Below are positions 12,505 through 46,533 of a stretch of 64,000 nucleotides of DNA, in pieces. The notes under the pieces were generated by a model, which did no database searches, had not been told where the DNA came from, and saw only the letters and a list, made by a program, of their open reading frames with translations. Origin of the DNA: Clostridiales bacterium (GTDB taxonomy: Bacteria > Bacillota > Clostridia > Oscillospirales > Oscillospiraceae); assembly GCA_029010715.1 (NCBI GenBank), contig JAQXKZ010000028.1, positions 1-64,000 of the forward strand. Direction: 5' to 3'. Within the stretch, counting starts at the first letter, position 1. The number at the start of each line of letters is the position of its first letter. The position numbers were made by a program, and so were the translations under genes.

Positions 12505-12612
12505 TATACCTCCGGATCATTGTATGCAAACTCGCAGCACCTTGCCCGGAGGCGCAGAAAAGCCTCCCCGGAACATACCACTGTCCCGCAGAGGTTGCAT
12601 GTTTGTCCGCTC
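12505..12612 (-). ncRNA. NiCo (czcD-type) riboswitch candidate controlling the CDF exporter
   Basis: Minus strand: GGACAAACATGCAACCTCTGCGGGACAG...TTCCGGGGAGGC...GCCTCCGGGCAAGGTGCTGCGAGTTTGC; paired GGGACAG/GGGCAAG-type modules directly upstream of a CDF gene. Confidence 0.8.
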
Positions 12613-13141
12613 TGCTGTTACCCGAGGTAACCCGGCTCCACGGTAATAAACCGTCGCCTGCTCAGTTTGTACTGTTGATTTCGCATCAAGCGCGATGCAG
12701 TGCAAAGAGTTTGAGTGATACTAACATTTTTGGACGGGAATGTCAATATCCTGATGCTGTGCGGGAAAAGATTCATAAAAAACGGCGGAACAATGCGCTG
12801 GCGCCGCAAAGCGCAGCATTATTTTAAATTGAATAAGAACGTAAGAACCCGGCACCGGCGGCAGCTTTCCGGCTTTGCAGCGGCGTCATTATACTCCGGG
12901 AGCGTCCATGTCAGACAGATTCCGGCCATTGCGGCAGGAAAACGGGCATATGAGGATGAAGGGATGCGCTTTCAATTTCCGCCAAAACTGATTATTATAT
13001 GTCCGGTTCTTTGAAAGACAGGTCATACCGAAGCCGACGCAACCGGAGATAACGAAGATCCCATTATTTTGACAAGTTGCGTTGGTGGATAAGACCGCAA
13101 CCGTATATTACAATATTCAAAGAAATCTAACGAGGAGGATG

Positions 13142-31647: not shown

Positions 31648-31832
31648 TATACCATCTGCACTGTTAATAAACAGTTAAGTATGGAAAAGATATGTAACAT
31701 TTGTTTGAACATATACGGAAAAACCGGCAGAAGCGGGAGTTCTGCTTTCCGGCCTTCCCGGGCGGCGCCTGAAAAGCAGCGTGCTTTTTGACCTTTGCAT
31801 GTTTACAAAATTTTCACAGCAGTTTCAGAATT

Positions 31833-31865
31833 TGTTCAGCAATATATGGTAAATTATATCCAGCG
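31833..31865 (+). promoter_or_regulatory. Sigma-A-like promoter of the ncRNA
   Basis: TTGTTC-N17-TATATC, with overlapping alternative TAAATT. Confidence 0.5.
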
Positions 31866-32043
31866 AAAGTCGTAAGCCAAGCGACGCGCAGCGCGAGGTC
31901 TGCCCCTGTGCAGGACTGATGCCCGGGAAATGCCCGGGATAAGCCTACGGCCCTGCATCTTTTGGCAAGGTCAGATCCGGCGGTTTACCATAGATAACAC
32001 TTGAGCGTAGTCCAAAAAGGCGGACTGCGCTCAAGACAATTTT
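31866..32043 (+). ncRNA. Structured non-coding RNA candidate of unassigned class (test raiA and 6S models)
   Basis: Promoter at the 5' end, terminator-like hairpin 32000-32035, several nested complementary segments and no credible ORF on the plus strand. Confidence 0.6.
32000..32043 (+). terminator. 14-bp stem terminator-like hairpin
   Basis: CTTGAGCGTAGTCC-aaaaaggc-GGACTGCGCTCAAG followed by acaatttt. Confidence 0.65.
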
Positions 32044-32438
32044 AAGGCATTTCGGCTGCCTGCGCCGTATACCGGCGCAGGCAGCTTTTTGTCCAGCAGC
32101 ACCCTGCCGAGGCAGAGGCAGCGGCTGCGCTCGCTTCTGCTCAGATGCAGGTTCTCCCGCTCCCGGGCGGGATTTGCGCAGAGCAGGTGCAACCCGCCGG
32201 CATAGTCCTCGCACCACTGACGGCAATATACTTTTCCGCGATACAAAAACAGCCCGGCCTCCATCTCCGCCGGAGTCTGCCTGCGGCTGATGTATACGCG
32301 CTCGCCGCGGCGTATGTACGGCTCCATCGTATCGTCGTCGTGGATTATGCACATGTCAGCCGCCGCCGGAACGGCGGCGCCGCGTTCTATCAGGTCGTAA
32401 TCGTCAGGCGTTTTCCTCGCCCCCTTTATTATAGTCAC
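32031..32438 (-). CDS. Stand-alone S24/LexA-like domain protein
   Basis: CIIHDDDTMEPYIRRGERVYISRRQTPAEMEAGLFLYRGKVYCRQW resembles GDSMEP..i..Gd.V of S24 peptidases; no HTH seen. Confidence 0.6.
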   Translation of the reverse strand: MTIIKGARKTPDDYDLIERGAAVPAAADMCIIHDDDTMEPYIRRGERVYISRRQTPAEMEAGLFLYRGKVYCRQWCEDYAGGLHLLCANPARERENLHLSRSERSRCLCLGRVLLDKKLPAPVYGAGSRNALKLS

Positions 32439-44623: not shown

Positions 44624-45862
44624 TTATTTCAGCGCCGCGGTAAATTCAATGACCGGGCCGGGCTGAAGCTGAGCGCAGATCGTCCCGCCGTGAGCTTCGA
44701 CTATACCTCTGGCTATTGACAGGCCGATACCGAAGCCGCCGGTAGCGGAGCTGCGCGACATGTCCGGCCTGTAGAAGCGGTCGAATAAGCGGCCGGTTTC
44801 GTCCGGTTCAATGCCGCTGCAGGCGTTTGAGCAGCGAAGTACTGTGCCGTGCCGCTCTTTTTTCAGGCTTATGCGGATCGGGCCGGGTGCGGCGTATTTG
44901 ACGGCGTTGTCGAGGAGAATGGAGCAGAGCTGGCGTATCGCCGACTCATCCCCGTGATACTGCAGGCCGTTTTCGATATCCGTCACGAGTTCATGCCCGG
45001 CGCACCCGGCGGACGCCCGGAAGCTCTCCGCCGTGTCAGCGACCGCTGCGCTTATATCAAAATCCGACCTGACCATGCCCGGATCCTCCTCGTCCATACG
45101 CGACAGTGTGACGAGACCGCATACAAGATCGCGCATCTTATCGGTCTGGGCCTGTATTTTCCCGAGCCACTTATTTTCGCCTATCTCCATCTTCAATACG
45201 CCGAGACAGGTCGTTATTACCGTGAGCGGGGTTTTCAGCTCATGTCCGGCGTCGGTTATGAACTGCTTCTGCTGTTCGGCGCTGCGTATCACGGGTGCGA
45301 CCGCGCTGCGCGAGAACAGCAGCACCAGCAGGTATGTGGCGAGCGTACACACTGCAACGGCAATGACGGACAGGAGCGCGAAGGTCTTTACGGTGCGCAT
45401 CTGCTGATAGCAGTCGATAAAGACCGCCATGTAATCCTCGTCCGACTCGCACGTCACAAGAAACCTGTAACCGTCGGTGTAACCGTAGCCCGTGCCGTGA
45501 CTGAGCGCTCTGGCCAGGTAGTAGTCCACGTTGTCCGGAGTGACGGCGGCGATGTTCCTCAGATTGGCCTCAGACATAAAGCCATCGCCGTTAAAACGCA
45601 GCACAAAGAAACGCGTGGAATACGGCGTCTCCTGTGTGACAGGGCCGGCGGGTCTTGAGCCGGGCCTGCCTGAGGGCGGCTCGGAGCGGCCCGGAGATGG
45701 AATCGCGCCCCGGTTGTCTGAAATGAGATCGAGCATTACCTTTATTCCGGAGTCGACCGAAATGAAGTTCGCGGCATTTACGATGATGCAGAGCGTGAGC
45801 ATGACCAGCATGACGGAGAGCATGGAAATGCGTATGAACTTTTTCTGCAGACGCCTTATCAT
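44624..45862 (-). CDS. Sensor histidine kinase
   Basis: FITDAGHELKTPLTVI H-box; GGFGIGLSIARGIVEAHGG. Confidence 0.93.
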   Translation of the reverse strand: MIRRLQKKFIRISMLSVMLVMLTLCIIVNAANFISVDSGIKVMLDLISDNRGAIPSPGRSEPPSGRPGSRPAGPVTQETPYSTRFFVLRFNGDGFMSEANLRNIAAVTPDNVDYYLARALSHGTGYGYTDGYRFLVTCESDEDYMAVFIDCYQQMRTVKTFALLSVIAVAVCTLATYLLVLLFSRSAVAPVIRSAEQQKQFITDAGHELKTPLTVITTCLGVLKMEIGENKWLGKIQAQTDKMRDLVCGLVTLSRMDEEDPGMVRSDFDISAAVADTAESFRASAGCAGHELVTDIENGLQYHGDESAIRQLCSILLDNAVKYAAPGPIRISLKKERHGTVLRCSNACSGIEPDETGRLFDRFYRPDMSRSSATGGFGIGLSIARGIVEAHGGTICAQLQPGPVIEFTAALK

Positions 45863-46533
45863 TTTGACGCCTCCAGTACATAGCCCATGCCGCGTATGGC
45901 GCGTATGGCGGCGGCTGAGCCTATGGACTTAAGCTTCTTGCGCAGGTTGGAAACATGTACCCAGACGACGTTTATTTCGGCCTCGCAGTCCCAGCCCCAG
46001 ACGCGCTCCATGATCTTGTCGGCGGAGAATATGACCCCCGGCGAGCCGAGCAGAAGCTCCATAAGCTGATACTCCTTGCCGCTAAGCCTTGTCGCCTCAT
46101 TTTCGCAGCGGAGCATCGCGCTGCTGCAGTCCAGACTCAGGTCTCCGGCGCTGAGCACGCGCGGCCTGTATTCTCCGCCGCGGCGCAGCATGGCCCTGAT
46201 ACGCGAGAGCAGCTCGTCAGGCGCGAAGGGCTTGGGCAGGTAGTCATCCGCGCCGGCGTCAAAGCCGGTTATGCGGTCATCCTTCTGCCCCTTTGCCGTC
46301 AGCAGCATCACGGGTGTGGCTATGCCATCCTCGCGCAGCCGTGTCAGCACCTGAAGACCGCTGAGCCTGGGCATCATTATATCGAGGATGAGCGCGTCGT
46401 ATGCGCCCGTGGAGGCATATTCATATGCGTCGGCCCCGTTGTTTACGGTATCGACGCTGTAGTTGTGCCTCTCAAGAAAGACCGTCAAGGCTTCGGCCAG
46501 ATCATTTTCGTCCTCCGCGATTAAAAGTTTCAT
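45859..46533 (-). CDS. OmpR/PhoB family response regulator
   Basis: MKLLIAEDENDLAEALTVFL...DALILDIMMPRLSG...winged-helix C-terminus. Confidence 0.94.
   Translation of the reverse strand: MKLLIAEDENDLAEALTVFLERHNYSVDTVNNGADAYEYASTGAYDALILDIMMPRLSGLQVLTRLREDGIATPVMLLTAKGQKDDRITGFDAGADDYLPKPFAPDELLSRIRAMLRRGGEYRPRVLSAGDLSLDCSSAMLRCENEATRLSGKEYQLMELLLGSPGVIFSADKIMERVWGWDCEAEINVVWVHVSNLRKKLKSIGSAAAIRAIRGMGYVLEASK

Follow-up and report, generated by a model that had tools for sequence, protein, structure and literature searches.

A clade-limited structured RNA of an undescribed family in the Oscillospiraceae, preceded by a predicted response-regulator array

A locus on contig JAQXKZ010000028.1 of a Clostridiales bacterium (family Oscillospiraceae) raises the question of what kind of RNA gene it contains and what switches that gene on. 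The window referred to below is the whole stretch of DNA that was analysed, with a length of 64,000 nucleotides. A preliminary description, made from its letters, had proposed a stand-alone structured RNA gene, and this is borne out by sequence and fold analysis of 31861-32043 (+). The minimum free energy of the + strand is -74.2 kcal/mol (z = -3.76), none of 200 shuffles was equally stable, and homologues with covarying helices exist. Equally upheld is the lack of a plausible plus-strand ORF, as none of at least 50 aa was found in the RNA region and no conserved peptide or ORF was found among the RNA loci of the relatives. Transcription is predicted to start at about 31862 (Table 1). The explanation that we consider best overall, and moderately probable, is a gene in single copy whose product is a structured non-coding RNA that acts in trans, belongs to an undescribed family and is controlled by an htrA-linked regulator. 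A short S24-peptidase-like ORF (32031-32438, -; Pfam score below the cut-off) runs convergently with the RNA. Its predicted end is doubtful, because it overlaps the last bases of the RNA and the ORF encloses the terminator at 32054-32090.

Table 1. Positions in the window of the RNA gene, its parts and a candidate regulator gene
Feature	Coordinates	Strand	Basis
Four direct repeats with 11-bp spacing (TTTACA, TTCACA, TTCAGA, TTCAGC); predicted OmpR-family binding array	31802..31845	+	phasing in homologues; own-genome scan
Extended -10, TGG-TAAATT, its start 15 nt downstream of that of the last repeat	31847..31855	+	offset kept in homologues
Structured ncRNA of about 180 nt, or of about 230 nt should the terminator downstream be its 3' end	31862..32043	+	homologues by blastn and covariance model; fold z = -3.76
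5' leader hairpin, GTCG-TAAGCCAAG-CGAC	31869..31885	+	fold; variable between species, not conserved in the 31-sequence alignment
P1, 5' strand GGUCUG (partner 31972-31977)	31897..31902	+	fold; mismatched-partner test in relatives; longer bulge in the window itself
P2, 5' strand UGCAGGACUG (partner 31948-31957)	31909..31918	+	10/10 pairs double-changed
Internal loop, 5' side, AUG, conserved	31919..31921	+	31-sequence alignment: always GAUG; wider set: GAUG or GAAU
P3 hairpin, CCCGGG-AAAUG-CCCGGG	31922..31938	+	6/6 pairs double-changed
Internal loop, 3' side, AUAAGCCUA; varies least among the unpaired sequences of the family	31939..31947	+	alignment; GCC retained in most of 59 tabulated loci, distant ones included
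P2, 3' strand	31948..31957	+	covariation table
P1, 3' strand CAGAUC	31972..31977	+	fold; mismatched-partner test
Single-stranded linker, variable; includes the block singled out earlier	31978..31999	+	not conserved in alignments
P4, 14-bp hairpin CUUGAGCGUAGUCC / GGACUGCGCUCAAG, conserved loop CAAA-N(1-2)-GGCG	32000..32035	+	98.9% of cells paired; 10/14 pairs double-changed
Conserved tail ACAAUUUU; U-run weak and set off from the stem	32036..32043	+	alignments of relatives
Strong intrinsic terminator, possibly the real 3' end	32054..32090	+	14-bp stem, 11 G-C pairs, TTTTTG tail
Response-regulator gene, candidate regulator; own promoter with phased TTCAGT/TTTAGC/TTTAAG	45859..46533	-	NCBIfam; promoter rank 32/1669

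A blastn search of 80 related genomes with the window sequence returned eight relatives besides the own genome, all from the same genus. With a first covariance model, built from nine sequences, carriers made up 31 of 102 congeneric genomes, and a few more were found in other genera and families of the order. The second covariance model (R2, built from 33 sequences) placed the RNA in 14 of the 106 genera of the family and in 2 of 388 genomes in a class-wide draw, counts that are approximate because the strict filters of the large searches drop weak matches and the lowest-scoring hits are uncertain. Relatives outside the class were not found by covariance model. An exact IUPAC pattern of the core matched 44 stretches in 85,462 species genomes; 40 of them belong to Clostridia/Oscillospiraceae-type genomes, two being named Candidatus Faecousia, and the other four (Loktanella, Arthrobacter, Hyphomicrobiales and Stenotrophomonas) are at about chance level. 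As judged from these searches, the RNA is restricted to the Oscillospiraceae and close kin. A mobile element was rejected as an explanation, given the single copy in the genome, the lack of a match to the RNA in phage and plasmid records, and 0 matches of the exact core pattern in the viral contigs scanned.

Matches on the opposite strand of the loci reflect the self-complementary P4, and L045/L090 and L046, which the model hit weakly, are probably either false matches or strongly diverged. A few genomes (G080:C16, G618 and G670) hold two copies of the RNA, which in G080 lie about 44 kb apart. At three loci of another genus (L040, L042 and L044) the 3' hairpin, GTCCAAA..GGCGGAC, persists beside the same gene, with the promoter array or the core degraded.

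The fold is supported by compensatory changes. In the covariation table, which comprises 33 sequences and 30 modelled pairs in three helices (P2, P3 and P4), 95.5% of the pair cells are standard and 26 of the 30 pairs have changed on both sides, with all three helices covarying; none of 500 shuffles scored as high, and a slid alignment was only 34-43% paired. For P1, a mismatched-partner test found at least 5 bp in 16 of 30 relatives against 6.1 expected, and a cruder per-sequence test of this helix was not significant. The examination of covariation that the preliminary description had called for therefore came out positively for P2, P3 and the 3' hairpin, and P1 passes the mismatched-partner test. 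About 76 cells of the table hold G-U pairs (manual count); these would be A-C mismatches on the other strand, which fixes the + strand as the one transcribed. Judged by the alignments, the product is a small structured RNA of a family absent from Rfam, kept by compensatory base changes across gut and rumen Oscillospiraceae.

Conservation is highest in the internal loop that joins P2 to P3, AUG / GAUAAGCC(U/G)A. This loop (5' AUG; 3' GAUA-N-GCC-N-A) is nearly fixed while the helices drift with compensation, and it is kept even in distant members whose 3' hairpin is an ordinary terminator-like hairpin with another loop. Common to the relatives are a core of the form GATGCC-hairpin-GGATAAGCCTACG and a 3' hairpin of the form CTTGRGYG..GTYCAAA-N(1-2)-GGCGRAC..CRCYCAAGAC, the P4 loop being conserved in Faecousia-like members and replaced by other hairpins in distant ones. 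A loop-loop pairing between GCC of the internal loop and GGC of the P4 loop was considered and rejected as a general feature, because 14 of 59 tabulated loci have GCC without the P4 loop motif. Both triplets are present in 33 of the 59 loci and GCC occurs with GGU in one; the possible contact is nearly invariant, and covariation consequently cannot assess it. Most pairings recognized by eye in the preliminary description reappear here, namely the 5' hairpin, GGTCTG/CAGATC (P1), TGCAGG/CCTGCA (P2), CCCGGG (P3) and the 14-bp 3' hairpin, with the exception of CGCG-cag-CGCG, which is not conserved in relatives. The unpaired block ggcggtttaccatagataac, thought to be distinctive, proved to be part of the non-conserved linker before the 3' hairpin, and its supposed importance is not borne out.

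The 14-bp hairpin had also been taken for terminator-like. The hairpin itself is real and covarying, but the U-run behind it (ACAATTTT) is weak, displaced and lost in some relatives, and for this reason it may not be an ordinary terminator. Since a strong terminator follows at 32054-32090, the 3' end of the RNA may lie at either about 32043 or about 32090.

A cmscan search, as the preliminary description had advised, matched the RNA to no Rfam family in the window, nor in any of 26 homologous loci, where the one match was a tRNA elsewhere in locus L078, and a permissive scan of the region gave just a chance minus-strand match of 16 bits. The sole match in the window above the Rfam gathering threshold is a NiCo (nickel/cobalt) riboswitch at 12579-12675 (-; 74.6 bits). 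Both classes that the description had put forward were rejected. No RF00013 (6S) match was found in 31780-32080 at E values up to 5, and a separate 6S gene is present in the own genome (58.3 bits; L010 1501-1703, -; own genome C34:54214-54416) and in 21 of 22 carriers tested; R2 gives no real match to the 6S gene. A 6S paralogue was likewise rejected. The own 6S does contain GATGCCG...CTGCGGAT, two words that also occur in the P3 region of the new RNA, but in the 6S model each of them pairs with another part of the molecule and not with its counterpart, and 6S is not matched by the new model. For raiA, RF03072 matched neither the window and its region nor the own genome; it is the regional scan that carries weight, because the genome-wide search had no positive control.

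What switches the gene on can be approached through its promoter. The plain sigma-A promoter initially proposed did not hold up: a consensus promoter scanner listed no + promoter at 31833, and the gene is preceded by an extended -10 and an 11-bp-phased array whose hexamers (TTTACA/TTCACA/TTCAGA/TTCAGC) span 31802-31840. Essentially all strong relatives carry three to five upstream hexamers TT(T/A/C)A(C/G)(A/C) every 11 bp, which end at a fixed distance before an extended -10. The offset of the -10 from the first repeat is 48 or 59/62 nt in 20 of 21 homologues, and for each genus member tested 0 of 200 shuffles showed hexamer phasing as good. In an array scan of the own genome (about 1.98 Mb) the RNA site came first with 41.3; the second-highest site had 25.0, and reversed-sequence controls reached at most 22.7. 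The exact 3-box pattern had a single match in this genome, at the RNA promoter. As direct 11-bp repeats joined to a -10 are the binding mode of PhoB/OmpR-family regulators (PMC4415409; PMC3091779; PMC9210968), we read the array as the signature of an OmpR-family response regulator, by which the RNA is apparently switched on.

The own genome contains about a dozen OmpR-type genes, and the repeats of the RNA fit no published consensus exactly. In the G029 clade (L005, L011, L012, L013, L015 and L016) the RNA is flanked by htrA on one side and by a divergent response-regulator/kinase operon on the other; four phased repeats and a -10 with matching offset belong to the htrA of this clade and two repeats to the regulator operon, whereas the array at the htrA of the own genome is weaker. 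The adjacency to regulator and htrA is confined to this clade, and in a different species (L113) the regulator/kinase pair also adjoins the RNA, without htrA. The recognition helix of the RNA-adjacent regulator (HVEVYVGFLRKKL) resembles that of CiaR (VVEVYVSKVRKKL; PMC3091779). When 1669 upstream regions of the own genome were ranked by the array model, a WalR/MtrA-like regulator operon on contig C48 with an HtrA gene downstream came 3rd, another htrA 27th and the regulator gene of the window 32nd; the latter regulator is 45% identical to the one beside the RNA in another clade. Together with its adjoining kinase this regulator occupies 45191-46533 (-), where three 11-bp-phased repeats, close to the CiaR consensus, end in TTTAAG before TATAAT. 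Because one lineage has the RNA between a regulator/kinase operon and htrA, with the same arrays on all of them, an htrA-linked envelope-stress regulator, CiaR- or WalR-like, is favoured as the likeliest trigger, although as a candidate only.

A phosphate-starvation RNA, in which the repeats would be Pho boxes and PhoB/PhoP would drive the gene, was our first reading of the array. Hexamers of the TTTACA/TTAACA type at 11 bp fit the geometry of the Pho box, with its two 11-nt direct repeat units (PMC4415409), and on contig C13 of the own genome a PhoB-like gene lies behind the pst genes. Furthermore, in 4 out of 6 carriers the pstS promoter contains a TTTACA pair whose offset to a -10-like hexamer is the same as at the RNA (p<0.005 each), and given these similar repeats PhoB may also bind. 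However, a PstB above the cut-off was found in only 9 of 28 carriers, and ten carriers that lack PstB are at least 90% complete; PstS exceeds its cut-off in 6 of 18, and the pstS promoter of the own genome ranks only 124 of 1669. Since both proteins are missing from many carriers, the Pho box was demoted from a general rule to a rival that we regard as rather improbable, and the htrA-linked system is retained as the favoured trigger.

The neighbourhood of the gene varies by lineage and includes an AI-2E transporter, a thioredoxin, an F420-ligase-like gene, a Na/alanine symporter and the regulator-kinase/htrA set (the neighbours in the lineages are our own readings of ORFs, those in the window were assigned by Pfam). 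This variation argues against the leader of any one gene. A cis-acting leader or attenuator would agree with the terminator-like hairpin at the end of the RNA and with + strand genes such as trx downstream in some lineages; nevertheless, the downstream genes differ by lineage, the next gene in the window is convergent and several relatives have an apparent separate promoter downstream, making such a leader very unlikely. A small protein gene with a short frame starting at the conserved AUG is harder still to credit. In some members the AUG of the internal loop is indeed in frame with the UAA of AUAA (MPRPCCG in L029), but in many others the loop length shifts the frame, no ribosome-binding site precedes the AUG, no peptide is conserved, and the changes track base pairing and not codons. 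Considering the varied neighbourhoods and a promoter of its own, a trans-acting RNA is the economical reading. The earlier assignment to a trans-acting or complex ncRNA of unassigned class thus agrees with the lack of an Rfam match, the covariation, the neighbourhoods and the promoter, the part that fell being its suggestion of 6S or raiA.

We propose that a phosphorylated OmpR-family response regulator would bind the array, which would replace a -35 element, and that the RNA would be made strongly upon firing of the two-component system. The internal loop, since it is kept while its helices drift, could be the working surface, either as a protein-binding site or as an exposed antisense seed; the RNA might then retune the expression of distant genes during stress, and P4 would protect or define its 3' end. 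The RNA is thus probably a stress-induced regulatory RNA, and its pattern of conservation leans towards a binding site over base pairing. It may be speculated, tentatively, that this is a protein-binding structural RNA of the 6S/raiA type that sequesters a protein through the internal loop with no base pairing, which differs from our best explanation solely in how the RNA would act. In its favour, the unpaired bases with the highest conservation form an internal loop within a helix, kept while the flanking helices covary, and no conserved long single-stranded seed was seen; on the other hand, the RNA is by model neither 6S nor raiA, and raiA/ModT has a housekeeping promoter (PMC11706538), from which the stress-type promoter here differs. 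A bolder and still doubtful proposal is a new class of structured bacterial RNA in which the internal loop AUG / GAUAAGCC(U/G)A would be a dedicated protein- or ligand-binding module and the RNA the main output of an envelope-stress two-component system in the Oscillospiraceae, given that no other array of this type in the genome comes near the strength of its promoter.

The Oscillospiraceae, including Faecousia-like genera, are abundant gut and rumen bacteria, and to our knowledge few regulatory RNAs have been described in them. Our verdict is that the RNA family is real and undescribed, that its promoter prediction is strong and its core unusually structured, and that its predicted kind is a two-component-controlled regulatory RNA. 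The Oscillospiraceae thereby gain an RNA family that is defined, has a fold backed by covariation and comes with a predicted two-component trigger as well as candidate regulators, and a covariance model is now available for its annotation. The findings also suggest that a logic known from streptococci, in which htrA, a small RNA and the response regulator's own gene are all driven by that regulator, may have emerged in a distant lineage of the Bacillota, there with a much more structured RNA. A description of this RNA, or of such an RNA target in the Oscillospiraceae, was not found in the open literature and may exist elsewhere.

Several known systems can be compared. With 6S RNA (RF00013) the new RNA shares a similar size and a stand-alone gene, but it is not a single long rod, as the preliminary description had anticipated, and the models do not cross-match. 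The raiA motif/ModT (RF03072) is likewise a stand-alone structured RNA of the Bacillota of about 200 nt with its own promoter and a 3' hairpin; it has, however, up to eight helices (P1-P8), two pseudoknots (pk1/pk2) and a sigma-A/housekeeping promoter (PMC11706538), whereas four conserved helices were found in the new RNA, which is clade-limited and has a repeat-array promoter. The promoters of WalR, PhoP and PhoB targets share the 11-bp-phased hexamers: TTTACA/TTAACA resembles Pho boxes and is the reverse complement of the WalR half-site TGTWAH (site TGTWAH-N5-TGTWAH; PMC9210968), yet the published targets found are protein genes and here the target is an RNA. The CiaR-dependent csRNAs of streptococci are also small RNA genes with an OmpR-family regulator, hexamers with 5-nt spacers and a fixed -10 distance; their regulator also controls htrA, and their sizes of 51-202 nt (PMC3091779) accommodate the new RNA. 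The CiaR promoter, TTTAAG-N5-TTTAAG followed after 10 nt by TATAAT, was not found at the new RNA: csRNA promoters have two TTTAAG with an invariant G and the new family has TTYA-type arrays of three to five, with the -10 beginning 9 nt after the hexamer instead of 10. Besides these promoter details, the new RNA belongs to a different bacterial family, its regulator is a candidate only, and it is set apart from the csRNAs by a covarying multi-helix core with a constant internal loop.
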